Shown here: piece after piece, positions 13,455 through 33,662 of the stretch
Position numbering within the stretch: the stretch's first letter is position 1
How the letters are laid out: each line of letters begins with the position of its first letter
Source: Sphingomonas sp. LaA6.9
GTDB taxonomy: Bacteria; Pseudomonadota; Alphaproteobacteria; Sphingomonadales; Sphingomonadaceae
Assembly: GCF_022601895.1 (NCBI RefSeq)
Contig: NZ_JAKVIO010000041.1
Location: 1 to 34,851, forward strand
Reading direction: 5' to 3'
DNA length: 34,851 nucleotides
Program-made: the position numbers and the translations under genes
The notes under the pieces: generated by a model
Databases searched by the model: none
Seen by the model: the letters and a program-made list of their open reading frames with translations, nothing else
What the model was told of the DNA's origin: nothing

Positions 13455-13457
13455 GCC

Positions 13458-14854: not shown

Positions 14855-14856
14855 CC

Positions 14857-15207
14857 ATGACCCGCTTGGCTTTGTCTTTGCTGCATCACTTGCCTTCGGT
14901 TCGGCCGGTGCTGCTGGGTGCATTGGTCGCAGCTTCGCTGTCGCTGGCCGTGCGCGCCAGCGCGGCGGGCTCGGGCATGCCCTGGGAGCAGCCGCTTCAG
15001 CAGGTGCTGGAGTCGGTCCAGGGGCCCGTCGCCAAGATCGTGGCAGTAATCATCATCATCACCACGGGGCTGACGCTCGCCTTTGGTGAGACGGCGGGCG
15101 GCTTTCGCAAACTCATCCAGATCATCTTCGGCCTGTCGATCGCCTTTGCCGCCTCCTCCTTCTTCCTGAGCTTCTTCAGCTTTGGCGGCGGGGCGCTGAT
15201 CGCATGA
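14857..15207 (+). CDS. trbC: Conjugal transfer pilin precursor TrbC (VirB2 type)
   Basis: A 116-residue precursor with a long leader peptide ending near RASAAGSG, followed by two hydrophobic helices, VAKIVAVIIIITTGLTLAFG and IIFGLSIAFAASSFFLSFFSFG. This is the layout of TrbC/VirB2 pilins, which are processed and in some systems cyclised into the mating pilus. I prefer the ATG at 14857, which has GGAG 7 nt upstream, over the ATG at 14851, which is only 1 nt from it. trbD starts inside its stop codon. Confidence 0.9.
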   Translation: MTRLALSLLHHLPSVRPVLLGALVAASLSLAVRASAAGSGMPWEQPLQQVLESVQGPVAKIVAVIIIITTGLTLAFGETAGGFRKLIQIIFGLSIAFAASSFFLSFFSFGGGALIA

Positions 15208-15488
15208 GCTCGGAATTCCATGGCAGCGGCCAGCACATCGAGGGTTTCGAGGCCCCGATCCACGGCGCACTCGGACAGCCAATCCTAATGGCAGGCGCGC
15301 CGCGCGGGATCGCGATCATCAACGGCACGATCGCCGCGGCCATTGGGCTCGGTCTTCAGCAATGGCTCGCAGGCCTTGTGCTCTGGGCGATCGGGCACAG
15401 TCTTGCGGTGTTCGCCGCGCGGCGCGACCCCGATTTCGCGCCCGTGCTCCTGCGTCATCTGCGCCAGAAGGGCTGGCTCACATGCTGA
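15204..15488 (+). CDS. trbD: Conjugal transfer protein TrbD (VirB3 type)
   Basis: A 94-residue inner-membrane protein of the mating channel. A polar N-terminus (EGFEAPIHGALGQPILMAGAPR) leads into two adjacent hydrophobic helices (IAIINGTIAAAIGLGLQQWLAGLVLWAIGH), and the C-terminus contains the RRDPDFAPVLLRHLRQKGWL motif, very typical of TrbD. The start overlaps the trbC stop (ATGA). Length is normal. Confidence 0.93.
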   Translation: MSSEFHGSGQHIEGFEAPIHGALGQPILMAGAPRGIAIINGTIAAAIGLGLQQWLAGLVLWAIGHSLAVFAARRDPDFAPVLLRHLRQKGWLTC

Positions 15489-15495
15489 GGCTCCC

Positions 15496-17955
15496 ATGAT
15501 GAACCTGCGCGAATATCGCAACTGTGCCGACAGGCTTGCCGATCACCTTCCCTGGGCGGCGCTTGTCGCGCCGGGCGTGATCCTCAACAAGGATGGCAGC
15601 TTCCAGCGCACGCTCAAGTTCAGGGGCCCCGATCTCGAAAGCGCGACCGACGCCGAACTCGTCTCGACCTGCGCGCGCGCCAATAACGTGCTGAAGCGCT
15701 TCGGAACGGGCTGGGCGCTGTTTTTCGATGCCGAAAGGCGCGAGGCGCTGGGTTATCCCAAAGCCGCATTTCCCGATGCCGCGTCCTGGCTGGTCGACGA
15801 GGAACGGCGCGCTGCGTTCGAGGCCTCAGGCCAGCATCATGAGAGCCATTTCCATCTGACGCTCACCTGGCTGCCGCCGGCGGACGCGAGCGACGCCGCT
15901 GTTCGCTCGTTGATCGACCATCCCGATCAAGCTCAGACGCGTGATTGGCGCACCACCCTTGTGTCCTTCATTGCCGAGACCGACCGTGCGCGCGATCTGT
16001 TCGCGGGCTTCATGCCCGAAGTCGTCGCTTTAAACGACGCCGAGACGCTCACCTATCTCCACGGCGCGATCTCGAACCGGCGGCACAAAGTCGCGGTGCC
16101 CAAGACACCGATCTACCTCGACGGGCTGCTCGCCGACACGCCCCTCCTCGGCGGGCTCGAGCCCCGACTTGGAGACGCGCATCTGCGCACGCTCACGATC
16201 CTCGGCTTTCCCGGCATGAGCCGGCCCGCCATTCTCGATGCGCTCAATCACCAGGACTTTGGCTATCGCTGGGTCACGCGTTTCATCGCGCTCGACAAGA
16301 CCGATGCCACACGGGTGCTGACGAAACTGCGTCGGCAATGGTTCAACAAGCGCAAGTCGGTGACAGCCCTTCTGCGCGAGGTGATCTACAACCAGCCCGT
16401 CCAGCTGCTCGACAGCGACGCCGACAACAAGATGGTCGACGCCGATCTCGCGCTCCAGGCGCTCGGCGGCGATCATGTCGCGTTTGGCTATCTGACGACG
16501 ACGATCACCGTTTCTGACAGCGACCGCGCGCGTGCCGACGACAAGGTGCGCGCCGTCGAGCGCATCGTGAACGGGCTTGGCTTTACCTGTATCCGCGAGA
16601 CCATCAACGCGCTCGAGGCCTGGCTGTCCTCGCTCCCCGGACAGATCTACGCCAATGTCCGCCAGCCCCTCGTCCACACGCTCAACCTCGCGCATCTCAT
16701 GCCGCTGTCATCGGTTTGGGCGGGTCCTGCTGCAAACCGGCACCTTTCGGCACCGCCGCTGCTCCACGCCCAGACCTCGGGCTCGACGCCCTTTCGCCTT
16801 TCCACCCATGTCGGCGATGTCGGCCATATGTTCGTGGTCGGACCGACAGGGGCGGGCAAGTCGGTTCTGCTGGCGCTGATCGCGCTCCAGTTCCGGCGCT
16901 ATGCGCGCGCGCAAATCTTCATCTTCGACAAGGGATTTTCCGCACGCGCGGCGGTGCTGGCAATGGGCGGGGCGCACCATGCGCTCGGGGCTTCAGGCGA
17001 TAGCGACCGGGATGCTGACGAGACACTGGCCTTTCAACCGTTGAGAGCCATTGACCAGGCTAGTGAGCGCAGCTGGGCAGCCGAATGGATCGCGGACCTA
17101 CTCGCGCACGAGAAGGTCCTGGTCACCCCCGAGATCAAGGAGGCACTCTGGTCGGCGCTGACGAGCCTGGCATCGGCGCCCCCCGAAGAACGAACACTGA
17201 CCGGGCTTGTCATGCTGCTCCAGTCCAATGTGCTGCGCACAGCCCTTGGCGCCTATACGCTCGAGGGCCCCTATGGCCGGCTGCTCGATGCTGCCGAACA
17301 GCGCCTCGACCTCGCCGATATCCAGTGTTTCGAAACCGAGGCGCTGATGGGACAGGCGGGCGTGGTGGCACCCGTGCTCACCTATCTGTTTCACCGTCTC
17401 GAGGAGCGCTTCGACGGCCGCCCTACTTTGCTGATCCTCGACGAGGCCTGGATCTTCCTCGATCATCCGCTCTTTGCGGCGCGCATTCGCGAATGGCTGA
17501 AAACGCTCCGCAAGAAGAATGTCGCGGTGCTGTTCGCGACGCAGAGTCTTTCGGACATCGCCGACAGCAACATTGCGCCCTCGATCATCGAGAGCTGCCC
17601 ACAGCGCATCCTGCTTCCCAATGATCGCGCGATCGAACCCCAGTCGCGCGCCGCCTATGAGCGTTTCGGGCTCAACCATGCCCAGATCGCGCTCATCGCG
17701 CGCGCGACACCCAAGCGGCACTATTATCTCCAGTCCGCGCGCGGCAACCGGCTGTTCGAGCTTGGCCTTGGACCCGTGGCGCTCGCGCTCTGCGGTGCCT
17801 CCGACCCCCAGGCCCGCATCGACGCCCTCCTCGCTGAACATGGCGCTGACCAGTTCGCCGCGCATTTTCTGAAAGGAGCCGGCCTCGACTGGGCCGCGCG
17901 CGCACTCGCCGATTTTCCCGGTCCCCAAGCCCCAGCACAAGGAGAAGATGCATGA
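15496..17955 (+). CDS. trbE: Conjugal transfer ATPase TrbE (VirB4 type)
   Basis: An ATPase of about 819 residues that drives pilus biogenesis and substrate transfer. The N-terminal CagE/TrbE domain opens with MMNLREYRNCADRLADHLPW. The C-terminal half carries Walker A (GPTGAGKS, about residues 449-456), then FIFDKGFSARA and Walker B (TLLILDEAWIFL) with the following LKTLRKKNVAVLFATQSLSD helix. GAGG at 15487-15490 fits the ATGs at 15496 or 15499; earlier in-frame codons overlap trbD and are unlikely. The stop overlaps the trbJ start. Full length, no lesion seen. Confidence 0.95.
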   Translation: MMNLREYRNCADRLADHLPWAALVAPGVILNKDGSFQRTLKFRGPDLESATDAELVSTCARANNVLKRFGTGWALFFDAERREALGYPKAAFPDAASWLVDEERRAAFEASGQHHESHFHLTLTWLPPADASDAAVRSLIDHPDQAQTRDWRTTLVSFIAETDRARDLFAGFMPEVVALNDAETLTYLHGAISNRRHKVAVPKTPIYLDGLLADTPLLGGLEPRLGDAHLRTLTILGFPGMSRPAILDALNHQDFGYRWVTRFIALDKTDATRVLTKLRRQWFNKRKSVTALLREVIYNQPVQLLDSDADNKMVDADLALQALGGDHVAFGYLTTTITVSDSDRARADDKVRAVERIVNGLGFTCIRETINALEAWLSSLPGQIYANVRQPLVHTLNLAHLMPLSSVWAGPAANRHLSAPPLLHAQTSGSTPFRLSTHVGDVGHMFVVGPTGAGKSVLLALIALQFRRYARAQIFIFDKGFSARAAVLAMGGAHHALGASGDSDRDADETLAFQPLRAIDQASERSWAAEWIADLLAHEKVLVTPEIKEALWSALTSLASAPPEERTLTGLVMLLQSNVLRTALGAYTLEGPYGRLLDAAEQRLDLADIQCFETEALMGQAGVVAPVLTYLFHRLEERFDGRPTLLILDEAWIFLDHPLFAARIREWLKTLRKKNVAVLFATQSLSDIADSNIAPSIIESCPQRILLPNDRAIEPQSRAAYERFGLNHAQIALIARATPKRHYYLQSARGNRLFELGLGPVALALCGASDPQARIDALLAEHGADQFAAHFLKGAGLDWAARALADFPGPQAPAQGEDA

Positions 17956-18683
17956 AGAAATTCATCCTCGCAGCACTGATGGCGAGCAGCGCCACCATTT
18001 CGATGACGATGCTGGCGATGGTCCCCGTGACGCCCGCACGCGCGATGCCCGTCTTCGACAGCGCCAACTATGCGCAGAACCTGCTCATCGCTGCGCGCAC
18101 GCTCGAACAGATCAACCAGCAGATCCGGTCGCTCCAGAATGAGGCGGCAATGCTGGCGAACATGGAGAAGCATCTCGAGCGGATCGACTTTCCCGAGCTT
18201 CAGCAGCTTCGCACAAAGCTCGCCGAGATCGAGGCGCTGATGGACAAGGCCGAGGGCATCGATTTCAGGATCGGCCGGATCGACGACCAGTTTCGCAAAT
18301 TCTTCCCTCAGCAGTTCGATCGCGCGCTTCGCGGCGACCAGCATGCGGGTCAGGCGAAAGACCGGCTCGAGACCGCGATGGCCGCTTTCAGGCAGACGAT
18401 GCGCGTCCAGGCCGAAGTCGTCGGCAATGTCGCGGAGGACGCTGAGGCGCTGTCGGCGATCGTTGCAAAGAGCCAGGGCGCCCAAGGCAGCCTTCAGGCG
18501 GCGCAAGCGACCAACCAGCTGCTCGCGCTGACCGCCAAACAGCAATTCCAGATCCAGCAGCTCATGGCAGCGCAATCGCGTGCCGATGCCATCGAGCAGG
18601 CAAGGCGCGTCCAGGCCGAGTCCGATGCGCGCGCGGCCACGCGAAAGTTCCTCGGATCGGGCACGGCCTACACGCCTCGATAG
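17952..18683 (+). CDS. trbJ: Conjugal transfer protein TrbJ (VirB5 type)
   Basis: A 243-residue periplasmic protein with a Sec signal peptide (MKKFILAALMASSATISMTM to about residue 31, PARA) and a largely alpha-helical, coiled-coil-rich body (NLLIAARTLEQINQQIRSLQNEAAML; LLALTAKQQFQIQQLMAAQSRADA). This matches TrbJ, the minor pilus-tip component equivalent to VirB5. Start and trbE stop overlap. After it a 121-nt gap with a strong hairpin precedes trbL; the entry-exclusion gene trbK, often found at this point, is absent. Confidence 0.92.
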   Translation: MKKFILAALMASSATISMTMLAMVPVTPARAMPVFDSANYAQNLLIAARTLEQINQQIRSLQNEAAMLANMEKHLERIDFPELQQLRTKLAEIEALMDKAEGIDFRIGRIDDQFRKFFPQQFDRALRGDQHAGQAKDRLETAMAAFRQTMRVQAEVVGNVAEDAEALSAIVAKSQGAQGSLQAAQATNQLLALTAKQQFQIQQLMAAQSRADAIEQARRVQAESDARAATRKFLGSGTAYTPR

Positions 18684-18731
18684 GTTCGGGCCCGGATAGA
18701 CGGCGGCGAATTCGCCTCCCCGTCGCCGTCG

Positions 18732-18773
18732 CCGCGGGGCGTGCCCTCAGCTCCCCTCGGGTGCGCCCCGCGG
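18732..18773 (+). repeat. GC-rich hairpin between trbJ and trbL
   Basis: CCGCGGGGCG (18732-18741) and CGCCCCGCGG (18764-18773) are perfect 10-bp inverted arms; inner CCC/GGG can extend the stem. No T-run follows. It lies in the only sizeable gap in the trb cluster and could partly terminate or stabilise the upstream message. Confidence 0.75.
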
Positions 18774-18804
18774 CTTGTCATCTTCCAGGACATAAGCGAC
18801 CGAC

Positions 18805-20112
18805 ATGAATGATCTGAACGTCATCGACCGGTTTCTGGCGACCTTCATCACCTATATCGACAGCGGGTTCGGACTGCTCGGTCCCGATGTCGGGTTCCTC
18901 ACGACGGTGCTGATCGGGATCGACATCACGCTCGCAGGGCTCTTCTGGGCGATGGGCGACGAGCAGGACGTTGTCGGTCGCTTCCTGAAGAAAATCCTCT
19001 TCATCGGCGCATTCGCGTTCATCCTGAACAGCTTTTCCGCGCTCGCCGACATCATCTTTCAGTCCTTTGCGGCCGCCGGCCTCACCGCAGGCGGCGGGAC
19101 CATGTCATCGGGCGACCTGCTCAAGCCCGGAAGGCTCGCCGCCACGGGCTTCGAAGCCGCCTGGCCGCTCCTCGAACAGGCCTCCGAGATGCTCGGGTTC
19201 ACGAGCTTTTTCGATAATTTCCTGACGCTCGCGATCCTGCTCTTCGCCTGGGCGCTCGTGATCATCGCCTTCTTCATCCTCGCGGTGCAGATGTTCGTGT
19301 GCATCATCGAGTTCAAGTTGACGACGCTTGCGGGCTTCATCCTGGTGCCCTTTGCGCTGTGGAACCGCACGAGTTTCCTTGCCGAGCGCGTCCTCGGGAG
19401 CGTCGTGAGCTCAGGCATCAAGGTCATGGTGCTTGCGGTCATTGTCGGCATCGGCTCGGGATTCTTCGCCGAATTTGTGGATGCGCTTCAGGGGCGTGAG
19501 CCCGATATCGGACAGGCCATGAGCCTTGTGCTCGCAAGCCTGTCGCTGTTCGGGCTTGGCATCTTCGGACCCGGCATCGCTTCGGGGCTTGTTTCGGGCG
19601 CGCCACAGCTGGGAGCAGGCGCCGTGGTCGGCACAGGCATTGGTGCTGCCGGTATCACCGCGATCGCGGGAGGCGCAGCGCTCGGCGCTGCACGCATGGC
19701 GGGTGGGGGTGCGCTTGGCGCGATCCGTGCCGGCACCGCCATGGGGTCAGCCGTATCGGCGAGCTACCGGCTTGGCCAGGAGGGGGCAGGGTCCTCGAGC
19801 ATCGGCGCCGGCCTTGGCGGCGTTGCGCGCGCCGCGGGCGGCGCCATGCGCCAGAAGGCGTCGACCACGCTTGGCGTGTCCCAAGCAGCGGCATCTGGGC
19901 GAAGCGCTGCCTGGTCGGCGATGACGGGAAGTGGAAATGCCCCCGACGCTACTACTGCCACGGCTTCTGACGCAGCCGCGCCCGCATGGGCGCAGGCGCT
20001 CCACGCCAACCAGGTGGCCCGCCAGCGCCGGCACGCCGTGCTCCACGCGCTCGGCGAAGGTTCGAGCGGCGGGGCGTCCGCCACCCCCGACATCAAGCAG
20101 AAGGAAGACTGA
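18805..20112 (+). CDS. trbL: Conjugal transfer protein TrbL (VirB6 type)
   Basis: A 435-residue polytopic inner-membrane protein. Six or so hydrophobic helices lie between residues 30 and 255 (FLTTVLIGIDITLAGLFWAM; LFAWALVIIAFFILAVQMFV; and others), including the conserved IIEFKLTTLAGFILVPFALW segment of TrbL. The last 170 residues are Gly/Ala/Ser-rich and low in complexity (ITAIAGGAALGAARMAGGG), as is usual for this family. The protein forms part of the channel through which DNA passes. Shine-Dalgarno pairing is weak (AGGA, 14 nt away). trbF begins 5 nt after its stop. Confidence 0.93.
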   Translation: MNDLNVIDRFLATFITYIDSGFGLLGPDVGFLTTVLIGIDITLAGLFWAMGDEQDVVGRFLKKILFIGAFAFILNSFSALADIIFQSFAAAGLTAGGGTMSSGDLLKPGRLAATGFEAAWPLLEQASEMLGFTSFFDNFLTLAILLFAWALVIIAFFILAVQMFVCIIEFKLTTLAGFILVPFALWNRTSFLAERVLGSVVSSGIKVMVLAVIVGIGSGFFAEFVDALQGREPDIGQAMSLVLASLSLFGLGIFGPGIASGLVSGAPQLGAGAVVGTGIGAAGITAIAGGAALGAARMAGGGALGAIRAGTAMGSAVSASYRLGQEGAGSSSIGAGLGGVARAAGGAMRQKASTTLGVSQAAASGRSAAWSAMTGSGNAPDATTATASDAAAPAWAQALHANQVARQRRHAVLHALGEGSSGGASATPDIKQKED

Positions 20113-23287: not shown

Positions 23288-23517
23288 AAGCTGGCTCAGG
23301 CGCAATGATTACCGACTTTGCAGGCCTGATCACGGTTGCGGAATTTGCGAAATTGACGAGGTTGTCGCGGCGACAGATCGATCGGCTCCGCAAGCAACGG
23401 CCACCCGGCTTTCCGCGCGAATATGAGTTGGCTGGCCGAACGACGAAGCACCACCGATGTCCGCGATTCAAACTCGTCGAAGTGCTCGCCTGGGTGGACT
23501 CGCGCGCCCTCTGGTAA
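23284..23517 (+). CDS. AlpA-like helix-turn-helix protein
   Basis: A 77-residue DNA-binding protein of the AlpA/MerR-like HTH type: GLITVAEFAKLTRLSRRQIDRLRKQRPPGFPREYEL, then RCPRFKLVEVLAWVDSRALW, where the terminal W-containing helix is the usual end. AlpA-type proteins often control excision or integrase genes of integrative elements. Its start overlaps the DUF2274 stop, and its last 50 nt overlap, on the opposite strand, the 3' end of the integrase fragment. Confidence 0.82.
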   Translation: MKAGSGAMITDFAGLITVAEFAKLTRLSRRQIDRLRKQRPPGFPREYELAGRTTKHHRCPRFKLVEVLAWVDSRALW

Positions 23518-23968
23518 TTCGGCGTGAACGCCACTTCGGAAACAGCGCGGCCGGCACCTCAAGATCCTCCTCAACGGGCACACCAAGCAGTGATGCTACA
23601 CCCTGTTTGCGCGCAATTTCGGCTACTTCATTCTCCCATTTGAGGAACGCCTCGCGCTTTTCTTCCTCCATTTCATACCTGTCATAGGTCCGCTCAAGGC
23701 CTTTCTTCACATGATTGAGCATTGCCTCAGCCGTATCGTAGTCAATCTTCAGCCGCTTCGTATTCGACCGGACTGTTCGGCGCAGGTCGTGCGGGATCCA
23801 ATGTTCGACAGGGCGCCCGGCAAATTCCGACATCCGGGCAAGAAGGCGGTCGCGCACCTTGCACCAGGTCTTCTGATGGAATTGCCCGTCCGATCGCGAT
23901 GAAGGCAGCACCCACTCATTGTTCGATTGGAAAAGTGACCATCCCCATGGCCCAAGCGGGATGACCAA
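23468..23968 (-). pseudogene. Tyrosine recombinase (integrase), C-terminal fragment
   Basis: A 166-residue fragment holding the end of the catalytic domain of a phage-type integrase. It has HWIPHDLRRTVRS (box II His-x-x-Arg, H60/R63 of the fragment), AEAMLNHVKKGLERTYDRYE with the second His (H86) and the nucleophilic Tyr (about Y95). The N-terminal arm-binding and core-binding domains and the first catalytic Arg are missing; upstream (24000) the frame closes with a stop and no integrase similarity. The fragment is convergent with and overlaps the AlpA-like gene. It probably marks the right boundary of the integrated element and cannot catalyse recombination alone. Confidence 0.85.
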
Positions 23969-24289: not shown

Positions 24290-25297
24290 ATGAAGAATAC
24301 GATCAAGGATGTAGCTGAAGTCGCTGGTGTTTCGGTCAAGACTGTGTCCCGCGTCCTCAACGACGAGAAATACGTCAGCGCGGACCTGCGTCAACGCGTC
24401 GAAGGGGCCATCGCGCGGCTGAACTTCCGTCCGAGCCTCGTCGCCCGCATGCTGCGTCGGCAGCGCTCGTTCCAGATCGCGCTGATCTACGACAATCCCA
24501 ACCCTTATTTCGTCTATAATGTGCAGGAAGGTGTCCGCGCGTGTTGTGCCGAGCGCGGATACCGGATGCTTGTCCAGCCATGCAGCATCCATTCGCCAAC
24601 CCTGGTCGACGATCTCGGTAGCCTGATCGAGCAGACGCATCTCGATGGTCTGATCCTGACGCCGCCGGTCACCGACAGCCTGCCTGCGCTCGAGGAATTG
24701 GGGCGCCGCGGCATCCGCCATGTCCGCATAGCGCCGGGCACGAATCTGATGGCCACCCCGTCGGTCCATATCGACAATGTCGCGGCCGCCGACGAAATGA
24801 CCCGCCATCTGCTGGACCTCGGCCATCGTCGCATCGGCTTCGTGGTCGGGCATCCGGCCTATATCACGAGCAACCAGCGGCTTCTGGGATATCGCGATGC
24901 GTTGCGCCGTGCCGGGGTCGCCTATGATCCGGAGCTGGTGCGCCCCGGTCAGTTCAGCGTGCAATCGGGCGTTGGCGCGGCCGAGGCGCTTTTTGCGCTC
25001 GCCAACGCGCCCACAGCGATCTTCGCGAGCAACGACGACATGGCAGCGGGCGTGCTCGCCACAGCACTCAGGCGCGGCATGACGGTCCCCGATGATCTTT
25101 CGATCGCGGGGTTCGACGATACCGAACTCGCGCAAAGCGTGTGGCCTCCGCTCACCACCATCCATCAGCCATTTCGCGATATCGGCTATGCGGCGGCGGA
25201 CGTGCTGCTGTCGGAGGATGGGAATGACGGTCCCGAACGTCGCCGGCTTGAATATCGGCTCGTCGTGCGGGAATCGACCGCCGCACCTCGAAGCTAG
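24290..25297 (+). CDS. LacI family transcriptional regulator
   Basis: A 335-residue sugar-responsive repressor. The N-terminal helix-turn-helix is TIKDVAEVAGVSVKTVSRVLNDEKYVS (residues 4-30). It is followed by the hinge helix (FRPSLVARMLRR), whose Leu inserts at a central CG step of the operator, and a periplasmic-binding-protein-like effector domain (IALIYDNPNPYFVYNVQEGV; HLLDLGHRRIGFVVG; PTAIFASNDDMAAGVLATALRRG). It lies at the left end of the catabolic locus, convergent with the MFS gene. Two CG-centred palindromes before the TonB receptor and between the divergent oxidoreductases are its probable targets. The start has no strong Shine-Dalgarno. Sulfo-SMO loci also carry a LacI-type regulator (SmoD), which fits. 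Confidence 0.93.
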   Translation: MKNTIKDVAEVAGVSVKTVSRVLNDEKYVSADLRQRVEGAIARLNFRPSLVARMLRRQRSFQIALIYDNPNPYFVYNVQEGVRACCAERGYRMLVQPCSIHSPTLVDDLGSLIEQTHLDGLILTPPVTDSLPALEELGRRGIRHVRIAPGTNLMATPSVHIDNVAAADEMTRHLLDLGHRRIGFVVGHPAYITSNQRLLGYRDALRRAGVAYDPELVRPGQFSVQSGVGAAEALFALANAPTAIFASNDDMAAGVLATALRRGMTVPDDLSIAGFDDTELAQSVWPPLTTIHQPFRDIGYAAADVLLSEDGNDGPERRRLEYRLVVRESTAAPRS

Positions 25298-25336
25298 GAC
25301 GGGCGCCGCGAGATTGGGATGTCGGCTAGCGACGGG

Positions 25337-26587
25337 TCAATGCGCGGCCTCTGGCCGGGGCGCCACGCGAATGCCCTCGAATGGCAGGCGCGGCAGCAGC
25401 AGCTGAATCACGCCCACCGCCATGAGATACGAGAATCCCGCGAAGAGGAAGAGCGGAAGGTAGCCCAGTCCCGCCGCGAGGATCAGTCCCGCTGCCTTGG
25501 CTATCACCATGCCCCCGATATTGCCCGCGAATGCGCCGAAGCTGGTGATGCGCCCGACCTTCTCGGGAGGCGACACGTCAGCGATCAACGTGAACAGGCT
25601 GGAGGAAAAGGCCTGGTGCGCAGCCATAACGAGCCCGAGTAGCGCGACCGCCAGCCAATAGTCATGCGCGAGATCGGCGAAGGGCAGGGGGGTCGCGAAG
25701 AGCGCCGCGACGAACAGCGCACCTTTTCGAACCCTTTCGATGCCATAGCCGCGCGCAATCAGTCGCGTCGTTACCGTACCCGCGATCAGCGCGCCCAGAG
25801 CTGCGCAGCTATAGGCGATGGCGAGGGGCGGGCCGAGCGCCACGCCCTCGAGCCCGAAGCTGCGATGAAAGAAATCGGGCATCCAGAAGAGCATGAGCCA
25901 CCAGGTCGCGTCGGACAGGAACTTGGCTGCCGCAATGGCCCAGCTGCGCTTCTCGGTGAGGATCGTTCCACCCACCCTGGTAGCGGGTTTCTCGCCAGGC
26001 GCGTCATGATCGCCGGTGAAATGAACGCCGCGCGTCGCCAGCAGCCAGAGCACGGCCCAGACCAGCCCGAGCACGCCGCCGATGAGAAAGGCCGAGCGCC
26101 AGCCCCACAGCACCGCGACGAGCGGAATCGCGAGTGGGGTCACGATCGCGCCAAGGCTGCCAACGGCGTTGAGCAGGCCGTAGCCCGTGGAGCGCCTCTC
26201 AGGGGGAAAGATCGCGGCGATGGTCTTGATGGCCGCAGGAGTGCCCATGGCCTCGGTCGCGCCGAGCGCGATCCGGCAGAAGACGAACTGGCCGAAGCCG
26301 CGCGCCACCGCATGCGCCATTGCGGCGACGCTCCACAGCGCCACGCCGACGGGATTTGCCCATTTGACCCCAAGCCGATCGACGATCCAGCCGGTGAACA
26401 GGAAAGCGAGCGCGGCCGAACCCTGAAACCACGCAGCGAGCGTGCCATAGTCATTGTCGCTCCAGCCCAGATCCGCAGCGATCACGGGTTTGAGGACCGA
26501 AATGATCTGGCGATCGACGAGATTGAGGATCGTCGCAGTCAGTGCGAGCGCGAACAGGAGGTTGCGGCGACGGGGCGAAAGGATCAC
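25337..26587 (-). CDS. MFS transporter, hexuronate/anion:cation symporter type (ExuT-like)
   Basis: A 416-residue inner-membrane protein with about twelve transmembrane helices. ILNLVDRQIISVLKPVIAADLGWSDNDYG at the first helix and GWIVDRLGVKWANPVGVALWS at the helix 2-3 loop, with FCRIALGATEAMGTPAAIKTIAAIFPPERR after helix 4, are hallmarks of the ACS family that imports hexuronates and other sugar acids. It starts with GTG 7 nt after the PhyH gene, so it is translated from the same leftward message. In this locus it most likely brings the substrate taken up by the TonB receptor into the cytosol. Substrate is inferred from context only. Confidence 0.9.
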   Translation of the reverse strand: MILSPRRRNLLFALALTATILNLVDRQIISVLKPVIAADLGWSDNDYGTLAAWFQGSAALAFLFTGWIVDRLGVKWANPVGVALWSVAAMAHAVARGFGQFVFCRIALGATEAMGTPAAIKTIAAIFPPERRSTGYGLLNAVGSLGAIVTPLAIPLVAVLWGWRSAFLIGGVLGLVWAVLWLLATRGVHFTGDHDAPGEKPATRVGGTILTEKRSWAIAAAKFLSDATWWLMLFWMPDFFHRSFGLEGVALGPPLAIAYSCAALGALIAGTVTTRLIARGYGIERVRKGALFVAALFATPLPFADLAHDYWLAVALLGLVMAAHQAFSSSLFTLIADVSPPEKVGRITSFGAFAGNIGGMVIAKAAGLILAAGLGYLPLFLFAGFSYLMAVGVIQLLLPRLPFEGIRVAPRPEAAH

Positions 26588-26594
26588 GCGGGGG

Positions 26595-27347
26595 TCAACC
26601 GGTTGTCACCCGTTCGCCGTGTCGCAGGATCGGAATCGCGTTGCGGCGCAGATGGCGGGTGCCCGGATCCAGCATCGCCTCGGGCGTATATTGCGCGAGA
26701 TAGACGCGGCGCGGCCGATCCGTCCGGTTGGCACCCGTCGCATGGAGCGTGAGGCTCGAAAAGACGACAACGTCGCCCGCCCTGGCTTCGACGATCTGTC
26801 CCTCGGTTTCGGCGGGCGCGCCTGCCAGGTCATTGGTGCCCGGCTGGCGTTCATGCGGGAGGATGCCATGCTTGTGGCTGCCCGGGATCAGGCGCACGGT
26901 GCCATTCTCTTCGGTCGCGTCATCGAGCGGGCACCAGCAGGTGAGATAGGGTGCGTGATCCGCGGGGCCGCCATTGCCGACGACATAGCCCGAATCCTGA
27001 TGCCAGGAGAAGGGCATGCCGCCCTCGGGGCCCTTCACGACATATTGATCGAAGAAGAAATAGGCATCGTCGCCCAGCGTCGCGCGGCAGATATCCGCCA
27101 TGGCCGGGCTGAACAGCACGGTGCGGAGTTGCGGCGCGACGCGCTGGCATTCGTTCGCGAAATAACGCTTGCCGCGATGGCTGATGCCGAGCGTATCAAC
27201 GCCCAGCGCATCCATCCGCGCGTCTTCGCGTGCGACGAAGGCGTCACATTCGGTGCGGAGCAGGTCGAGCGCCGCGCCAGCAAGAGCGCCGGGGAACACC
27301 GCATAACCCTGCTCGGCGAACTGCCGGGTCTGATCCTCGAACGGCAT
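26595..27347 (-). CDS. Phytanoyl-CoA dioxygenase (PhyH) family Fe(II)/2-oxoglutarate oxygenase
   Basis: A 250-residue jelly-roll oxygenase. The facial triad is visible: WHQD (His116, Asp118) and the distal His202 in SLTLHATGANRT, with Arg213/214 in RPRR to hold the 2-oxoglutarate carboxylate. TCWCPLDDATEENGTVRLIPGSH is the family's typical core. No CoA-binding feature is evident, and bacterial members act on many small molecules. It lies 20 nt after the TonB receptor and 7 nt before the MFS gene, so it is part of the same operon. An Fe(II)/2OG sulfoquinovose dioxygenase (SqoD) is known in other bacteria; whether this protein belongs to that group cannot be judged from sequence by eye. Confidence 0.9.
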   Translation of the reverse strand: MPFEDQTRQFAEQGYAVFPGALAGAALDLLRTECDAFVAREDARMDALGVDTLGISHRGKRYFANECQRVAPQLRTVLFSPAMADICRATLGDDAYFFFDQYVVKGPEGGMPFSWHQDSGYVVGNGGPADHAPYLTCWCPLDDATEENGTVRLIPGSHKHGILPHERQPGTNDLAGAPAETEGQIVEARAGDVVVFSSLTLHATGANRTDRPRRVYLAQYTPEAMLDPGTRHLRRNAIPILRHGERVTTG

Positions 27348-27367
27348 TATGCGGCGTTCCCTTTTGC

Positions 27368-29659
27368 TCAGTAGTTGAAGCGGACGTTCACGCCAAAATA
27401 GCGATCCACGTCACGCGGCAGAAGATAGCGGAAGCTGCCGCCCGGGCCACCGGGAGTGATCAGCGTCGCATAGCTCTCATCGGTCAGGTTGCGGCCGATG
27501 AAATTCACGCGCCATACGCCATCGGGATCGACCAGCGCGATATTGGCGTCGACGACGACATAGCCATCGATCGTGATCGCACGGCGTGTCACCGGATTGG
27601 CTTCGAGCGAGGAGACCTGATCGCTGGTGAGTGCTACCTGCCCGCCAATCTCGACATTGGCAAAGCCGCCGGTCTCGATCGTCCAGAGCCCGCCGACATT
27701 GCCCTTCCACGTCGGCGCCAGCGGAAGTTGTTCACCCCGTCGCGTGCTGCTGCCCGCCGGAGCATTGGGCGGCAGGTTGAATTCGTCGATCTGCGCATCG
27801 GTATAGGACAGGCCCGCGTTGAACGTGAATTCGCGCGAAGGACGGATGACGGACTCGATCTCGAAGCCCTTGGTCGAGACCGAACCGGCATTGGTGAGCT
27901 GCGTGATCACCGAACCGGCCAGGTTGACGAAGCTGTTGGCCTGGAAATTGTCGTATTTGGCATAGAATAGAGCGGTGTTCAGCGTCAGCTTACCGTCGGC
28001 GGTCTTGAACTTGGTGCCCAGCTCATAGGCGTCGGCGGTTTCCGCCGCGATCGGATCGAGCTGCCCCGCATTCTGGTTGAAGAAGACGTTGAAGGCCGGG
28101 CCCTTATAGCCCTGGCTGTAGGTGGCATAGGTCATCAGCTCGTCGCTGATATCGGCCTGCACGCCCACGCGGCCCGAGAAATCGTCGTTGCTCGTCGAAA
28201 GATCGTAGTTCGCGCCGACATTGAGCAGGCCCGGCCCGCCGCCATTGGTGGCGGGAATGCGGTTATTGAACGCATCGACATTGTCGTGCGTGTAGCGTCC
28301 GCCCGCGATCAGGCGCAGCCAGTCATTCACGTTGACGGTCAGGTTGCCGAAGATCGCGAAACTCTCGATCGTCGAACCGAAGGTCCCCACCGCACTCGGG
28401 AAGCGCAGCGTGGAGGAACCGGGCGCGCAGGGCGCGAGGCCGGGCGACACGGGCGGCAGCGTCGTTGCCGAGCAGACGATGTCGTCGCGCTGGAAAGTCC
28501 GCTGCTGCTTGGCGTTGTAGTAGAAGCCGCCCACGACATATTCGAGCGTCTGGTTGCCCGGCGACGCCAGCCGGATTTCCTGCGTGAAGGTTTCGGACGG
28601 CTGCGGGCCGAAATCGTCGAGCTGATGGCCGCCTGCGATGTTGTAGACGGTATCGATGAAGTCGCCGTCGCGGATGCCGAAATTGCGGTATTCGCGATAG
28701 GCGGTGATCGACGTGACCGTCCCCGCGCTGCCTACATCGAGATCGGCCTGGAGCGAGACGCCCCAGCTCTTTTCCTTGGTGCGGGTCAGCGTGTTCTGGC
28801 GGATCTCGCGCGTTTCGTCGCCCTTCAGGTCAACGCCGATCAGCGAGCCAGCGAGCGCGCCCGCGGGGGTGGTGCCGACCACTTCGGCGCAGCAGTCGCT
28901 GTTCTGTTTGCGATAATCGCCGATCAGCGTGAAGGTCAGCGCCGGGCTCGCTTCGGCGACGATCATGCCGCGGGCGCCCCAGCGCTCATAGCCGTTGACG
29001 GTGCGGTCGAGCGTGATGTTGCGGACGGTGCCGTCGAACCAGCCATAATTGCCGGTAAAGCGGCTGGTGATGCCCTCGGCGATCGGAATGTCGATCGCGC
29101 CGCGCAGCTTGTATTCCTCATCGGTTGTCGCCAGCGCCTCGACGAAGCCGCCCAGTTCGTCGCCGGGGCGGCGCGTGACGACGCTGATTACGCCCGCCGA
29201 CGCGTTCTTGCCAAACAGCGTGCCTTGCGGTCCGCGCAGCACCTCGACGCGTTCGATGTCGTAGAGGTCGCCAAAGGCCTCGCCCGAGCGGGCATAGGTG
29301 ACGCCATCGACCACGAAGCCGACGCTGGGTTCGGCCGCAATCGAGAAGTTGATCGTGCCGACGCCGCGCAGGAACACCGAGGAATCGAGCGTGGTCGCGC
29401 TGTCCTTGATGTTGAGGCTGGGCACAAGCTGCTGGAGCGACTGTATGTTGACGACGCCGCGCTGGTCGAGCTGCGCGGCACTCACCACGCTGATCGCCGC
29501 GGGCACCTTCTGCAAATTCTCCTCGCGCTTTTGCGCCGTGACAACGATATCGCCCGGATCGGCTGGCTGCGCCGCGGGAGGCGTATCCTGCGCCTGCGCA
29601 ACCTGCGTCATCGAAATAAGCAGCGCACCCGCGCTTGCGTTCACCAGAAACCGTCGCAT
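27368..29659 (-). CDS. TonB-dependent outer-membrane receptor
   Basis: A 763-residue receptor with a Sec signal (MRRFLVNASAGALLISMTQVAQA), a TonB-box region DIVVTAQKREENLQKVPAAISVV (about 36-58) and a plug domain (LRGVGTINFSIAAEPSVGFVVDGV; IERVEVLRGPQGTLFGKNASAGVISVVTRRP). The barrel ends with the signature RNLTDESYATLITPGG and a C-terminal Tyr (VRFNY). This class is abundant in sphingomonads and takes up diverse organic compounds. CC pairs at NSDCCAE and two more Cys near DIVCSATT/GLAPCAP may form loop disulfides. The start has GGGGAGG upstream. It follows the Gfo/Idh gene after 138 nt, which contain an operator-like palindrome, and is followed by the PhyH and MFS genes. Confidence 0.95.
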   Translation of the reverse strand: MRRFLVNASAGALLISMTQVAQAQDTPPAAQPADPGDIVVTAQKREENLQKVPAAISVVSAAQLDQRGVVNIQSLQQLVPSLNIKDSATTLDSSVFLRGVGTINFSIAAEPSVGFVVDGVTYARSGEAFGDLYDIERVEVLRGPQGTLFGKNASAGVISVVTRRPGDELGGFVEALATTDEEYKLRGAIDIPIAEGITSRFTGNYGWFDGTVRNITLDRTVNGYERWGARGMIVAEASPALTFTLIGDYRKQNSDCCAEVVGTTPAGALAGSLIGVDLKGDETREIRQNTLTRTKEKSWGVSLQADLDVGSAGTVTSITAYREYRNFGIRDGDFIDTVYNIAGGHQLDDFGPQPSETFTQEIRLASPGNQTLEYVVGGFYYNAKQQRTFQRDDIVCSATTLPPVSPGLAPCAPGSSTLRFPSAVGTFGSTIESFAIFGNLTVNVNDWLRLIAGGRYTHDNVDAFNNRIPATNGGGPGLLNVGANYDLSTSNDDFSGRVGVQADISDELMTYATYSQGYKGPAFNVFFNQNAGQLDPIAAETADAYELGTKFKTADGKLTLNTALFYAKYDNFQANSFVNLAGSVITQLTNAGSVSTKGFEIESVIRPSREFTFNAGLSYTDAQIDEFNLPPNAPAGSSTRRGEQLPLAPTWKGNVGGLWTIETGGFANVEIGGQVALTSDQVSSLEANPVTRRAITIDGYVVVDANIALVDPDGVWRVNFIGRNLTDESYATLITPGGPGGSFRYLLPRDVDRYFGVNVRFNY

Positions 29660-29797
29660 TCAAGCCTCCCCATAGAATCTCTACTTTTTTAATAGAGTTA
29701 TTTTCAGCTTGCCAAGGTCAGAAAAACTTTATCCCTGTCATGGTAAGATATCGATATCCTATCCGCTGCCCGGCGCAAAGCCGTGCGTTGCGTTCGT
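29660..29797 (-). promoter_or_regulatory. Leader of the TonB-receptor gene with LacI-type operator and a hairpin
   Basis: GATATCGATATC at 29747-29758 is a perfect 12-bp palindrome centred on CG, within an 18-bp near-palindrome TAAGATATCGATATCCTA (16 of 18 positions symmetric). Nearer the gene, CTCTA (29679-29683) and TAGAG (29693-29697) form a small inverted repeat around an A/T run. The ribosome-binding site GGGGAGG lies just before the ATG. The first site matches the one at 30909-30920, so both are probably bound by the LacI-type regulator. A promoter may lie here in addition to read-through from the Gfo/Idh gene. Confidence 0.6.
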
Positions 29798-30886
29798 TCA
29801 AAATCCGAGCTCGGCCATCTCCACAACGCGCTTCTCGCGCGCGCTCAGTTCCGCCGCCGCACCGATTGCGACGGCGCGCAGGCCGTCTTCCGCGGTGACT
29901 TCGACAGGGGCTTCGCCGCGGACCGCGGCGATGAAGCGCTGGTGTTCGTAAAAGGTCGAGCCATGATGGCTCCCGGCTGCGAGCGCCGCCGCGTCGACCT
30001 CGACATATGTGCGCTCTGCGCGCTTCGGATTGCCGAATCCCGTGCGCGGCGAGCGAACAATCGCGCCTTCCGGAATGAACACCTCGAGCCGGGCCTCATC
30101 GCCGACCGCCGCGATCTCCTCCTGGTTCTCGGCTCCGTCGGCGAACATTGAGAGATCGAGCATCGCACGCACCCCATTTGCGAAGTCGACGGTGGTGTAG
30201 CTGTTGTCGATGATGTCGGGGCGCTCGCCTTCGTAGAGCTCGTCGAGATGGTTCACGTCCATGGCCCCCGAGCAATAGACGCGCACGGGCTCGGACCGGA
30301 CGATCAGCCGCATAAGATCGAAGAAGTGGCAGCATTTCTCGACCATCGTGCCGCCGGTATTGCGGCTGAAGCGATTCCAGTCGCCAACCTTCTCCAGGAA
30401 GGGAAAGCGATGCTCGCGGATCGAGAGCATGCGTAGTGTGCCTGTGCGCCCGGCATGCACCTGCTCGATGAATGCCGCCGCGGGAGGCATGTAGCGATAC
30501 TCCATCGCGGTCCAGAACACCTTGTCGGTCTTCGCGGCGCGCTCGACGATCCATCGGGCGTCTTCGATCGTCGTCGCGAGCGGCTTCTCGCAGAGAATAT
30601 GCAGGCCAGCGTCAAACAGCGGCTCAAGGACCGCGCGATGCGTGAAGTTGGGGCTCGCGACGATGACCGCGTCGATACCGCCCGCGGCGGCCAGCTCAGC
30701 GCTGTTATCATATGCCCTCACACCAGCCGCGCGCCCGCCAAGCGCGGCCTTCGCCTCAGCCAGCGAGGTACCTGTGGGATCGGCCAACGCCACCACCTCG
30801 GCGCCCGGCGTGATCGCGAGATTGTGGATATGCTCAACGCCCATCATCCCGCTTCCGACCAGACCGTAACGAACGGGGTTTCCCAT
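29798..30886 (-). CDS. Gfo/Idh/MocA family protein, candidate NAD-dependent sulfoquinovosidase (GH188-like)
   Basis: A 362-residue protein with an N-terminal Rossmann domain (YGLVGSGMMGVEHI, residues 7-20; LADPTG; CEKPL at 99-103 with Lys101) and the C-terminal alpha/beta domain. EYRYMPPAAAF and the NTGGTMVEKCCHFFDLM block (Lys184, His187, Asp190) supply the usual active-site side. Family members use a tightly bound NAD to oxidise or hydrolyse sugars. A GH188 subgroup (SqgA) of this fold hydrolyses sulfoquinovosides by a transient NAD oxidation. The neighbours here (aldo/keto reductase and SsuD-like monooxygenase, divergent by 20 nt) are those of the sulfo-SMO route, so this is a good candidate; a simple sugar dehydrogenase is the alternative. 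First in the leftward operon. Confidence 0.8.
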   Translation of the reverse strand: MGNPVRYGLVGSGMMGVEHIHNLAITPGAEVVALADPTGTSLAEAKAALGGRAAGVRAYDNSAELAAAGGIDAVIVASPNFTHRAVLEPLFDAGLHILCEKPLATTIEDARWIVERAAKTDKVFWTAMEYRYMPPAAAFIEQVHAGRTGTLRMLSIREHRFPFLEKVGDWNRFSRNTGGTMVEKCCHFFDLMRLIVRSEPVRVYCSGAMDVNHLDELYEGERPDIIDNSYTTVDFANGVRAMLDLSMFADGAENQEEIAAVGDEARLEVFIPEGAIVRSPRTGFGNPKRAERTYVEVDAAALAAGSHHGSTFYEHQRFIAAVRGEAPVEVTAEDGLRAVAIGAAAELSAREKRVVEMAELGF

Positions 30887-30904
30887 TGGCGATTTCCTTG
30901 ATTA

Positions 30905-30922
30905 CTATGATATCGATGTCTG
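30905..30922. promoter_or_regulatory. LacI-type operator at the divergent start codons
   Basis: TATGATATCGATGTCTGA contains GATATCGATGTC (30909-30920), matching GATATCGATATC (29747-29758) except for one base and equally centred on CG. It overlaps the first codons of the aldo/keto reductase gene and lies about 20 nt from the start of the leftward Gfo/Idh gene, so one bound repressor could block both genes. Confidence 0.6.
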
Positions 30923-31824
30923 ACCTTGCTTTCTCACCCGAATCCAGACCGCTCGGCAAGAGCGGATTGACCGTCAGCCCGCTTGCCTGGGGCATGTGGC
31001 GCTTCAGGGGCGACGATGTCGCCGCCGCCCGCAAGCGCGTGGAAGCCGCGCTCGACGCCGGAATAACGCTCTTCGACACCGCCGATGTCTACGGGCCTGA
31101 CAATGGCGAACCTTTCGGCGCCGCCGAGGTGCTACTTGGTCGCGTCTTCGCCGAGGCACCCGAATTGCGCGAGCAAATGACGCTGGCGACCAAGGGCGGC
31201 ATCGTGATCGGCACGCCTTATGATTCGAGCGCACCCTATATCGAAGCGGCGATCGATGCCTCGCTCAGGCGCCTCGGTGTCGAGCAGATCGACCTGTGGC
31301 AGATCCACCGGCCCGATATCCTCACCCATCCGCACGAGATCGCGCGCGCGTTCGAGACGGCGCATGAAAAGGGCAAGGTCCGCGTCTTCGGCGTGTCGAA
31401 CTACACACCGAGCCAGGCCGCCATGCTCCAGCATTTCATGGATCGGCCACTCGTCAGCCACCAGCCTGAATTTTCTCCCCTTACGCTGGCGCCGCTCACA
31501 AACGGCCTCATGGATCAGGCCATCGCGAACGACATGGCGGTGCTCGCCTGGTCACCGCTCGGTGGCGGCAGGATCGCCGCGCCGCTGACGCAAGCAGAGC
31601 ACGCTGTCGCCATGCTCCTCGATGCCAAGGCGCAAGATTACGGCGTCTCGCGTACGGCGGCTGCCTACAGCTGGATCATGGCGCATCCCGCGCGGCCGAT
31701 TCCGATCGTGGGATCGCAACAGCCCGAGCGGATTCGGGAAGCGGCTGGCGCGCTGACGCCGCGCTGGACCCGCGCCGAATGGTACGCGGTGCTCCAGGCA
31801 TCGATGGGGGAGAGTTTGCCATGA
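30907..31824 (+). CDS. Aldo/keto reductase (SmoB-like, candidate 6-oxoglucose reductase)
   Basis: A protein of about 305 residues with the (beta/alpha)8 barrel of aldo/keto reductases. The catalytic tetrad is complete: Asp57 and Tyr62 in FDTADVYG, Lys96 in LATKGG, His134 in LWQIHRPD. SNYTPSQ and the NADPH-binding IVGSQQPERIREA near the C-terminus are present. In the sulfo-SMO pathway SmoB reduces 6-oxo-glucose to glucose; position directly upstream of, and overlapping with, an SsuD-like monooxygenase supports that role. Starts at ATG 30907 or 30916 are both possible; neither has a clear ribosome-binding site and the operator overlaps them. The stop overlaps the next start (ATGA). Confidence 0.88.
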   Translation: MISMSDLAFSPESRPLGKSGLTVSPLAWGMWRFRGDDVAAARKRVEAALDAGITLFDTADVYGPDNGEPFGAAEVLLGRVFAEAPELREQMTLATKGGIVIGTPYDSSAPYIEAAIDASLRRLGVEQIDLWQIHRPDILTHPHEIARAFETAHEKGKVRVFGVSNYTPSQAAMLQHFMDRPLVSHQPEFSPLTLAPLTNGLMDQAIANDMAVLAWSPLGGGRIAAPLTQAEHAVAMLLDAKAQDYGVSRTAAAYSWIMAHPARPIPIVGSQQPERIREAAGALTPRWTRAEWYAVLQASMGESLP

Positions 31825-32900
31825 CGCAATCGTGCGAAATCAGCTGGTTTTCTGCTCTGTGCGACGATGATTATGAATTCCTCGGCGTTCCCGATCCGTT
31901 GCTTCGATCGAGCTGGGAGCATTGCCGCGATATCGTGATGGGTGCCGAGAGCGGTGGGTTCGACAACATCCTGCTCCCTTCGGGCTATGCTCTGGGCATC
32001 GATACCACCGCCTTCGCGGCGGCCATCGCGCCGTTGCTGCAACGCATGCGGCTCCTGATGGCGGTGCGCATCGGCGAGTCCTGGCCGCCCCAGCTCGCGC
32101 GCCAGATCGCGACGATCGATCAGATGCTTGGCGGCCGGCTCACGGTCAACATCATCAGTTCGGATCTGCCGGGGGAAACGCTGCCTTCGGGCCCGCGCTA
32201 CGCACGCACGGTCGAGGCGATGCACATCCTCAAGACCATGCTCAACGGTGAGCCGCTCGACCATGATGGCGAGTTCTGGAAGCTCAAGCTCGATCCGCCG
32301 CGTATCCGGACCGTGTCAGGCAAGGCACCCTTGCTCTATTTTGGGGGGCTGTCCGAGGATGCCCGTGAGGCCGCGGCCAAAGGCTGCGACGTCTACCTGA
32401 TGTGGCCGGACAAGGAAGATGTGGTGAAGGCCACCATCGCCGATATGCAGGCGCGCGCGGGGAAGCATGGGCGCAGCCTGCGCTTTGGCTACCGCGTCCA
32501 TGTCGTGGTGCGCGAGACCGAGGCCGAGGCGCGCGCCGCCGCCGACCGTCTGCTCTCGAAGCTCGACGCCGAGGCGGGGGCGGCCATTCGCGCCCAGTCG
32601 CTCGATTCAAAGTCCGCGGGCGTGGCGGCGCAGGCGGCACTGCGCGAAGGCGCCTCCGATGACGGTTATGCAGAACCGCATTTGTGGACAGGCATCGGTC
32701 GCGCGCGTTCGGGCTGCGGTGCTGCGATCGTTGGCGATCCCGATCAGGTTCTCGCCAAGCTCCAGGCCTATCAAGCGATGGGGATCGAAGCGTTCATCCT
32801 GTCGGGCTATCCGCACGCCGCAGAAGCGGACCTCTTCGCGCGCTATGTACTCCCGAAAATGAAGCATGGGCCGCTGATCCAGATGACGCAGGCAAATTGA
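31821..32900 (+). CDS. LLM-class flavin-dependent monooxygenase, SsuD/SmoC-like (candidate sulfoquinovose monooxygenase)
   Basis: A 359-residue bacterial luciferase-like monooxygenase that uses FMNH2 and O2. The overall layout follows alkanesulfonate monooxygenase SsuD: ISWF start, GFDNILLPSG, LLMAVRIGESWPPQLARQIATIDQMLGGRLTVNIISSD, LYFGGLSEDAREAAAKGCDVYLMW, RFGYRVHVVVRETEAEARAAADRLL, LWTGIGRARSGCGAAIVGDPDQV, and EAFILSGYPHAAEADLFARYVLP. Differences from SsuD, such as the CDDDYEFLGVPD N-terminus, agree with the SmoC group that splits sulfoquinovose to 6-oxo-glucose and sulfite. It starts at ATG 31821 overlapping the aldo/keto reductase stop, with a GGGGGAG ribosome-binding site. No partner flavin reductase is adjacent. 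Substrate assignment rests on context and pattern. Confidence 0.85.
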   Translation: MTQSCEISWFSALCDDDYEFLGVPDPLLRSSWEHCRDIVMGAESGGFDNILLPSGYALGIDTTAFAAAIAPLLQRMRLLMAVRIGESWPPQLARQIATIDQMLGGRLTVNIISSDLPGETLPSGPRYARTVEAMHILKTMLNGEPLDHDGEFWKLKLDPPRIRTVSGKAPLLYFGGLSEDAREAAAKGCDVYLMWPDKEDVVKATIADMQARAGKHGRSLRFGYRVHVVVRETEAEARAAADRLLSKLDAEAGAAIRAQSLDSKSAGVAAQAALREGASDDGYAEPHLWTGIGRARSGCGAAIVGDPDQVLAKLQAYQAMGIEAFILSGYPHAAEADLFARYVLPKMKHGPLIQMTQAN

Positions 32901-33162: not shown

Positions 33163-33662
33163 TCAGAAATGTGGGCGCTTGCCGTCGCGGGTGGCGATGT
33201 GTCGGAAGTGCTTCAGTTTGGAGAAGAAGCGCTCGATCAGGTTGCGCTCGCGGTAGAGGCGCTTGCTGAAGCAGGGCTTCCATTTGCGGTTGGACTTGGC
33301 CGGAATGTTGGGCGTGGCGCCCTGCTCCTCGATGAGGGTGCGGATGCGGTCTGCATCATAGGCTTTGTCGGCCAGCACGATGGTGCGTGGGCCCAGCCGA
33401 TCCAGCAGCGCACCTGCAATCTGCCCGTCGTGCGCCTGGCCCGCGGTCAAGCCGAGCCGGATCGGGAGCCCTTGCGCATCGACGATGACGTGGATCTTGG
33501 TTGTGAGCCCGCCGCGGGAGCGACCGAGACAATGATCTCGATCCCCCTTTTTGCCGTCGCAGCCTGCTGGTGCGCCCGGACGGAAGTGCTGTCGATCATC
33601 TGGATATCGCAGTCGTGCGCGATCACGCGCCACTCAAAATCGGTCAGGTCATATCGGCTCAT
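33163..33662 (-). mobile_element. IS5-family (IS427-like) transposase remnant with internal deletion
   Basis: The N-terminus MSRYDLTDFEWRVI is typical of IS427-like transposases, but it jumps straight to AHDCDIQMIDSTSVRAHQQAATA, so roughly 75-80 residues between are deleted. The first catalytic Asp (MIDSTSVR) is kept. The frame then needs a -1 shift at an A5G5 run (complement of 33545-33554) to continue as KKGDRDHCLGRSRGGLTTKIH. This is the kind of overlap where related elements use programmed frameshifting. The second Asp (LADKAYDAD) and Glu (ERNLIERFFSKLK) are present, but the C-terminus is cut after HIATRDGK. The sequence before the start codon (to about 33710), with GGGATTCCCAGCG and a GGGATTTCTGATTC element, is probably the 5' terminal end; the 3' end is missing. 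Confidence 0.85.

Follow-up and report, generated by a model that had tools for sequence, protein, structure and literature searches.

In the genome of Sphingomonas sp. LaA6.9 (GCF_022601895.1; 4.39 Mb, 95 contigs), we analyzed contig NZ_JAKVIO010000041.1, whose entire length of 34,851 nt is called the window, and within it a group of seven open reading frames predicted to catabolize sulfoquinovose (SQ), an abundant sulfur sugar of plant membranes, by the SQ monooxygenase (sulfo-SMO) route. An earlier note had named six of these genes, all of which were found at their coordinates with the expected Pfam domains; it had omitted a seventh, a PhyH gene at 26595-27347 that lies within the same region. 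The genes and two candidate operator sites are as follows:

24290..25297, plus strand: LacI-family regulator, probable repressor of the SQ regulon (Pfam LacI and Peripla_BP_3)
25337..26587, minus strand: major facilitator superfamily (MFS) carrier, probable inner-membrane importer (PF07690, 1.8e-54)
26595..27347, minus strand: PhyH-family Fe(II)/2-oxoglutarate dioxygenase (PF05721, E 6.5e-31)
27368..29659, minus strand: TonB-dependent outer-membrane receptor (Pfam plug and barrel)
29746..29759, no strand: candidate LacI operator 5' of the TonB receptor gene, AGATATCGATATCC (2 mismatches to the consensus)
29798..30886, minus strand: predicted NAD-dependent sulfoquinovosidase of glycoside hydrolase family 188 (GH188), SqgA family, Gfo/Idh/MocA (51.6% identity to 8qc2)
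30908..30921, no strand: candidate LacI operator in the gap between the GH188 and aldo/keto reductase (AKR) genes, overlapping the AKR start codon, TGATATCGATGTCT (1 mismatch)
30916..31824, plus strand: AKR, SmoB/SquF-like, putative 6-dehydroglucose reductase (nearest 7bbz/7bby, 1.4e-46)
31821..32900, plus strand: predicted flavin-dependent SQ monooxygenase (SMO), SmoC/SquD type (55.9% identity to 7olf)

Comparison of the SMO with solved structures gave 7olf (E 4e-117, 394 bits; 193/345 residues identical) and 7oh2 (1e-114, 386 bits) as its nearest relatives, which we take to be SmoC structures although their deposited names are methanesulfonate sulfonatase and alkanesulfonate monooxygenase, while SsuD entries were matched at 5e-66 and weaker (best 227 bits). 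The curated SsuD models were matched at half their cut-off, the alkanesulfonate monooxygenase model scoring 252 bits against a cut-off of 518. In a tree of 32 rows the two SsuD rows split from the remaining 30 at 100/100, and the window protein lay within a nine-row set of sphingomonad and Caulobacterales rows (96/93), outside the branch holding 7olf and 7oh2; the two SmoC chains grouped (97/99) with those of loci L162 (Ruegeria), L096 (same order) and L163 (Emticicia plasmid). Identity, bit scores and tree together indicate a monooxygenase of SmoC/SquD type rather than SsuD, as the SmoC-like assignment of the earlier note had it. The genome held no second close SMO copy, other matches being at 26% identity. 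An SMO-like gene of 47% identity was also seen on the 34 kb plasmid pEMTOL05 of Emticicia oligotrophica (L163, Bacteroidota), beside a sodium/solute symporter gene.

The Gfo/Idh protein matched 8qc2, 8qc3 and 8zn9 at E 6e-110 to 2e-97 (181/351 residues identical to chain 8qc2), the next match being at 5e-24. All eight SQ-contact residues of ArSqgA (K107, Y136, R166, L170, K172, E189, H193 and H321) are kept, among them the sulfonate triad R166, L170 and K172 (residue roles from PMC10755693). The published Glu163 is off by one in chain numbering (Val in the chain, Arg in the window), and the adjoining Glu is kept. Because position 170 is Leu, the window protein is not the Tyr variant described in PMC11465081. 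The gene at 29798-30886 is, by family and contact residues, a predicted GH188 sulfoquinovosidase. No GH31 (PF01055) match was found in the genome by a search that was positive in 6 of 14 control genomes.

The AKR gene, for which the ATG at 30916 is the better start codon, shares four bases, ATGA, between its 3' end and the start of the monooxygenase gene. The best solved relatives of its product were 7bbz/7bby (1.4e-46, 162 bits), presumably SmoB though deposited as aryl-alcohol dehydrogenase, followed by the putative reductase 4r9o and E. coli YdhF (145 bits), a ranking that agrees with the SmoB-like assignment made before. The flavin reductases SmoA and SsuE were not found among the seven reading frames of the locus; the genome encodes one PF01613 and nine PF03358 proteins as candidates, one of the latter inside the window (~7063-7668; no NCBIfam match). 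The N. aromaticivorans cluster likewise lacks SsuE (PMC9594981). A single PF00174 protein of the genome could be a sulfite oxidase.

A contig scan for SMO relatives confirmed 575, of which the best 80 were retained; together with L001-L004 from the same genome (L001 being the window) they make 84 loci, many of them incomplete. Homologues at 40% identity or more were present for AKR in 75, MFS in 59, LacI in 48, GH188 in 45, TonB in 44 and PhyH in 9 of these 84. Among the 52 loci of at least 20 kb, where presence was called by identity thresholds set per family (LacI at least 48%), the counts were AKR 47, MFS 42, LacI 38, TonB 37 (one of which, L073, counts a distant receptor), GH188 29, GH31 16 and PhyH 4. 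GH188 and GH31 were mutually exclusive among these relatives, no locus carrying both and seven carrying neither (Fisher p 2e-8, kinship ignored), and a TonB receptor accompanies GH188 in 27 of 29 loci. SMO homologues were found on 29 plasmid records, 15 of them at 60-80% identity.

These data bear on whether the locus degrades some other sulfonated sugar or an alkanesulfonate instead of SQ. SsuD belongs to the same superfamily as the SMO, as the 252-bit match to the alkanesulfonate monooxygenase model reflects, and the window SMO stands apart from the branch of 7olf and 7oh2. We consider this alternative extremely unlikely, given that the GH188 protein retains every SQ contact, that a SmoB-like reductase adjoins the SMO, that GH188 and GH31 are complementary in relatives, and that SquD of Novosphingobium, compared here by its description, was characterised on SQ (PMC9594981).

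Exploring the intergenic regions, we found that the GH188/AKR gaps of relatives carry a palindrome of the form TGACANCGNTGTCA, whose window copy is the TGATATCGATGTCT at 30908. Sites were counted as matches to the consensus TGAYANCGNTRTCA that differ at no more than one position and lie strictly upstream of a gene, no further than 200 bases away; the background came from 59 permuted palindromes, and L121, L122, L126, L130, L149 and L154 were excluded as repeats of other loci. Sites were present upstream of 35/51 GH188, 17/65 TonB and 25/69 MFS genes, many loci being close relatives and 2 of the 25 site-bearing MFS loci repeating genomes already counted; permuted palindromes gave a mean of 0.08 (maximum 2) for TonB and 0.10 (maximum 4) for MFS. 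Upstream of AKR, whose start the site overlaps, the count was 10/83; it was 1/21 for GH31 and 0/94 for SMO. Since the palindrome is common to their upstream regions and that of GH188, the receptor and the carrier are tied to the regulon, in line with the earlier proposal that LacI, MFS and TonB provide control and uptake. The central CG form of the palindrome and the adjacency suggest that TGAYANCGNTRTCA is probably the LacI operator. The GATATCGATATC core had been considered as operator, with two matches in the window at no more than one mismatch against 0.08 expected, yet it occurred in 1 of 37 divergent GH188/AKR loci at up to two mismatches, and TGAYANCGNTRTCA was taken instead. The TonB-box codons (DIVVT; 29539-29552 in the window) resemble the candidate operator and are a trap inside the gene for motif counts; an initial TonB-site count that took them in, including the one at 29539, was replaced by the strictly upstream count.

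A number of points weigh against reading the locus as an SQ catabolic island with one regulon. Fifteen of the 52 loci of at least 20 kb have no TonB match. Sites upstream of LacI (1/54) and PhyH (1/20) show nothing, because permuted motifs reach as many (maxima 1 and 4). The window's own TonB-upstream site, AGATATCGATATCC, has two mismatches and falls outside the 17/65, and among the 28 loci listed L062, L083, L118, L123, L124, L127, L129, L136, L137, L139, L140 and L151 showed no site within one mismatch. Moreover, the GH188/AKR gap supplied the core, and the window TonB-upstream and L153 MFS-upstream sites were already in view when the Y/R letters of TGAYANCGNTRTCA were fixed, so that these sites are not independent. 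Finally, the AKR matched the SmoB entries only slightly better than YdhF (162 against 145 bits), and given this small margin its substrate is deduced mainly from context.

The PhyH gene lies 20 nt from the TonB gene and 7 nt from the MFS gene, spacers so short that the three look like one operon. A quick tree of 61 TonB receptors with long branches, from which rows below 550 aa, loci with no PhyH verdict and L117, L121, L122, L126, L130, L132 and L154 (same genomes, near copies, fragments) were excluded, revealed that the window clade of 10 rows (9 genomes) is entirely PhyH-positive and its sister of 31 rows entirely PhyH-negative. On this tree L042 and L149 are one genome, and L073 is a mispicked distant receptor, the proper receptor of its genome being L181. 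The PhyH label required 4 changes compared with 20.2 in shuffles, none of 500 shuffles being as low, and the PhyH-negative L014, L075 and L077 lay near other PhyH-positive clades. The dioxygenase thus tracks the TonB clade of the window. A rival view, in which the TonB, PhyH and MFS genes form a neighbouring operon with no relation to the SQ genes apart from a shared island, would fit the large number of TonB receptors in sphingomonads generally, and the order and place of the three genes vary among loci. This is very unlikely in view of the tree label, of the frequency of TonB in GH188 loci and of the upstream sites that TonB and MFS share; in genome G165, moreover, an unlinked PhyH-MFS-GlpD-GlpK operon on another contig carries one palindrome with a single mismatch ~95 bases upstream of PhyH, and the SQ locus of that genome carries a window-type TonB.

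We interpret the locus with high confidence as a sulfolytic SQ (sulfo-SMO) catabolic island of sphingomonad type, a prediction from sequence that draws on the observed family membership, GH188 contact residues, gene linkage, shared sites and co-occurrence. The sulfo-SMO interpretation offered before is supported as a whole, in that neither a placement of the SMO with SsuD or other luciferase-like monooxygenases nor one of the Gfo/Idh protein outside GH188 came out. In the mechanism we propose, in which we infer the substrates, the direction of transport, LacI binding and the entire role of PhyH, the TonB receptor would move SQ glycosides, e.g. sulfoquinovosylglycerol, across the outer membrane, and the MFS carrier, whose best NCBIfam match was a D-galactonate transporter under cut-off, would deliver them to the cytoplasm. 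There GH188 would release SQ via transient oxidation by NAD+. The flavin monooxygenase, supplied with FMNH2 by a reductase whose gene lies outside the locus, would cleave the C-S bond to yield sulfite and 6-dehydroglucose, and the AKR would reduce the latter to glucose. Expression of the TonB-PhyH-MFS operon, and of GH188 and the AKR-SMO pair divergent from it, is probably governed by LacI through the TGAYANCGNTRTCA palindrome. PhyH would most likely work ahead of the SMO, on a modified SQ compound imported by its receptor clade.

To characterize the dioxygenase, we analyzed its conservation and distribution. H116, D118 and H202 are kept in 22/22 aligned rows. Homologues of at least 67% identity occur in 14 of 397 Sphingomonadaceae genomes, the next best match being at 35%, and across 398 genomes of the phylum matches outside the own genome reach at most 41%. 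An SMO is present in 13 of these 14 compared with 103 of the 397 overall (Fisher p 1.5e-7, kinship ignored), and in both plasmid records with a close homologue PhyH lies no more than two genes from the SMO. For 50 of the 80 loci, hand-chosen with a lean to TonB-bearing ones (L029, L031, L039, L041, L058, L061, L066, L082 and L083 being left out), the genome was searched for PhyH, and 15 were positive. Flanks of 10 kb undercount it: seven GH31 loci that had no PhyH there carry it at a greater distance along their contig (five) or on another contig (two).

Three linked arrangements were seen: the window type, TonB-PhyH-MFS with GH188; the pKN1 type, SMO-PhyH-MFS-sulfatase-TonB; and a LysR type, in which PhyH and a LysR gene diverge, with TonB and GH31 nearby and sometimes an acyl-CoA ligase. 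On plasmid pKN1 of Sphingobium yanoikuyae (L136, 12000-13562), as in L076, L123 and L127, a sulfatase gene stands between MFS and TonB, which may hint at a sulfate ester on the PhyH-linked substrate. In the LysR-type loci L137 (4755-6398), L117/L119 and L151, a fatty-acid CoA ligase gene lies beside the GH31 sulfoquinovosidase and TonB genes and may connect these loci with the acyl chains that sulfolipid carries.

A further sphingomonad locus (L129 and L151; G226:C1:179000-212000) carries PhyH and no SMO. Genome G226 gave no SMO match and no SquF-type reductase at E <= 1e-40. Its PhyH locus contains short-chain dehydrogenase/reductase, IlvD-like, aldolase-like, aldehyde dehydrogenase and YeiH-like genes, a sulfolactate-dehydrogenase-like gene under cut-off, a GH31 gene matching PRK10426 (945 bits, cut-off 553), and SMP-30-like and SuyAB-like genes named by reading, the latter matching a galactarate dehydratase model under cut-off. 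With PRK10426 taken to be YihQ and the gene set to be that of the sulfo-Entner-Doudoroff (ED) pathway, this appears to be a sulfo-ED-like SQ set, seemingly running on to sulfite. Because a step useful to both SMO and ED routes would precede them, PhyH may process a modified SQ compound ahead of either pathway. We tentatively suggest, as a possibility short of an even chance, that it is an undescribed entry enzyme of sulfolipid-sugar catabolism, a 2-oxoglutarate oxygenase oxidatively trimming or opening a modified SQ compound imported by the dedicated TonB clade and feeding both routes.

Another explanation is that PhyH is a second C-S cleaving enzyme, a SQ dioxygenase of the sulfo-SDO type, the locus then having two oxygenases for one bond. 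It was raised by G128, whose gene order is GH188-AKR-PhyH-MFS-TonB, the locus lacking an SMO and PhyH occupying the usual SMO place; the best NCBIfam match of PhyH, far under cut-off, is the methylphosphonate hydroxylase PhnY, which hydroxylates adjoining a hetero-atom. However, G128 retains an SMO on another contig, and in the G226 locus such an enzyme would produce an aldehyde with no known reductase. We also observed a candidate sulfo-SDO locus of another class (L213, 7975-12239, in G573), with a TauD-family dioxygenase, GH188, GntR, a SmoB-like reductase and a tripartite ATP-independent periplasmic carrier. Like sulfo-SDO (SqoD), the window has an Fe/2-oxoglutarate dioxygenase near SQ genes, but the enzyme of L213 is of the TauD family (PF02668) and shows no similarity to PhyH (hhalign probability 0.5%, a weak test with the L213 enzyme and a single-sequence template). 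A duplicate of SqoD is, in the light of G226 and L213, unlikely. A profile search of the PDB with the 22 PhyH rows gave EvdO2 as best match (4.6e-27) and no SQ dioxygenase among the 47 names listed; an AlphaFold model from nine rows (mean pLDDT 35) was discarded.

The core route is known already; the receptor and operator evidence and PhyH are additions. Sulfo-ASMO has been characterised in N. aromaticivorans and A. tumefaciens (PMC9594981; PMC12890257), and Novosphingobium is an SQ assimilator with a predicted sulfo-SMO (PMC13372026). Sulfo-SMO clusters with GH188 have likewise been reported, one from Sphingomonas sp. Leaf17 being named in the Figure 5 legend (PMC10755693, Kaur et al. 2023). 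The earlier note had contrasted the locus with Agrobacterium and its ATP-binding cassette (ABC) importer and GH31; replacement of these by GH188, TonB and MFS held here, but the contrast is outdated, since the N. aromaticivorans pathway and GH188 clusters are in print (PMC9594981; PMC10755693).

The N. aromaticivorans system (SquD, SquF) resembles the window in its SsuD-like SQ monooxygenase and AKR and in the lack of SsuE in the cluster (PMC9594981), whereas two other Novosphingobium plasmid clusters have alpha-glucosidase (GH31-type) genes. The Agrobacterium Smo genes share SmoC and SmoB homologues with the window, which differs in having GH188 instead of GH31 and TonB with MFS instead of the ABC importer (PMC9594981), in a locus lacking SmoA and in an SMO apart from the SmoC branch. 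GH188 replaces GH31 in the SqgA clusters as well; TonB and MFS are absent from the main text of PMC10755693, though its figures or supplement may show them. Literature searches on sulfoquinovose combined with Sphingomonas (judged by title), TonB (title or start of abstract) and PhyH or phytanoyl-CoA dioxygenase returned, respectively, nothing on a sphingomonad SQ locus, nothing on SQ uptake or on how SQ glycosides cross the Gram-negative outer membrane, and no paper. SQ production amounts to ~10 billion tons a year (PMC10755693). The shared operator defines a testable regulon with a named receptor. The presence of PhyH suggests a substrate or step missing from the SQ pathway texts that were compared. 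A survey by SmoB and SmoC only, such as that of ISME 2026, would overlook the TonB-PhyH-MFS module.

Megablast against plasmid records gave no record matching more than 12% of the island. Upstream, with its end adjoining the island, lies a trb-type conjugation set (11415-20112: TraG, a TrbB-like ATPase, TrbE above its curated cut-off and TrbL), and an integrase-like fragment under Pfam cut-off is at 23468-23968; with these neighbours, the island has the look of cargo carried by a conjugative element. Directly past the monooxygenase gene is an insertion sequence transposase fragment (DDE_Tnp_1, 33163-33633).

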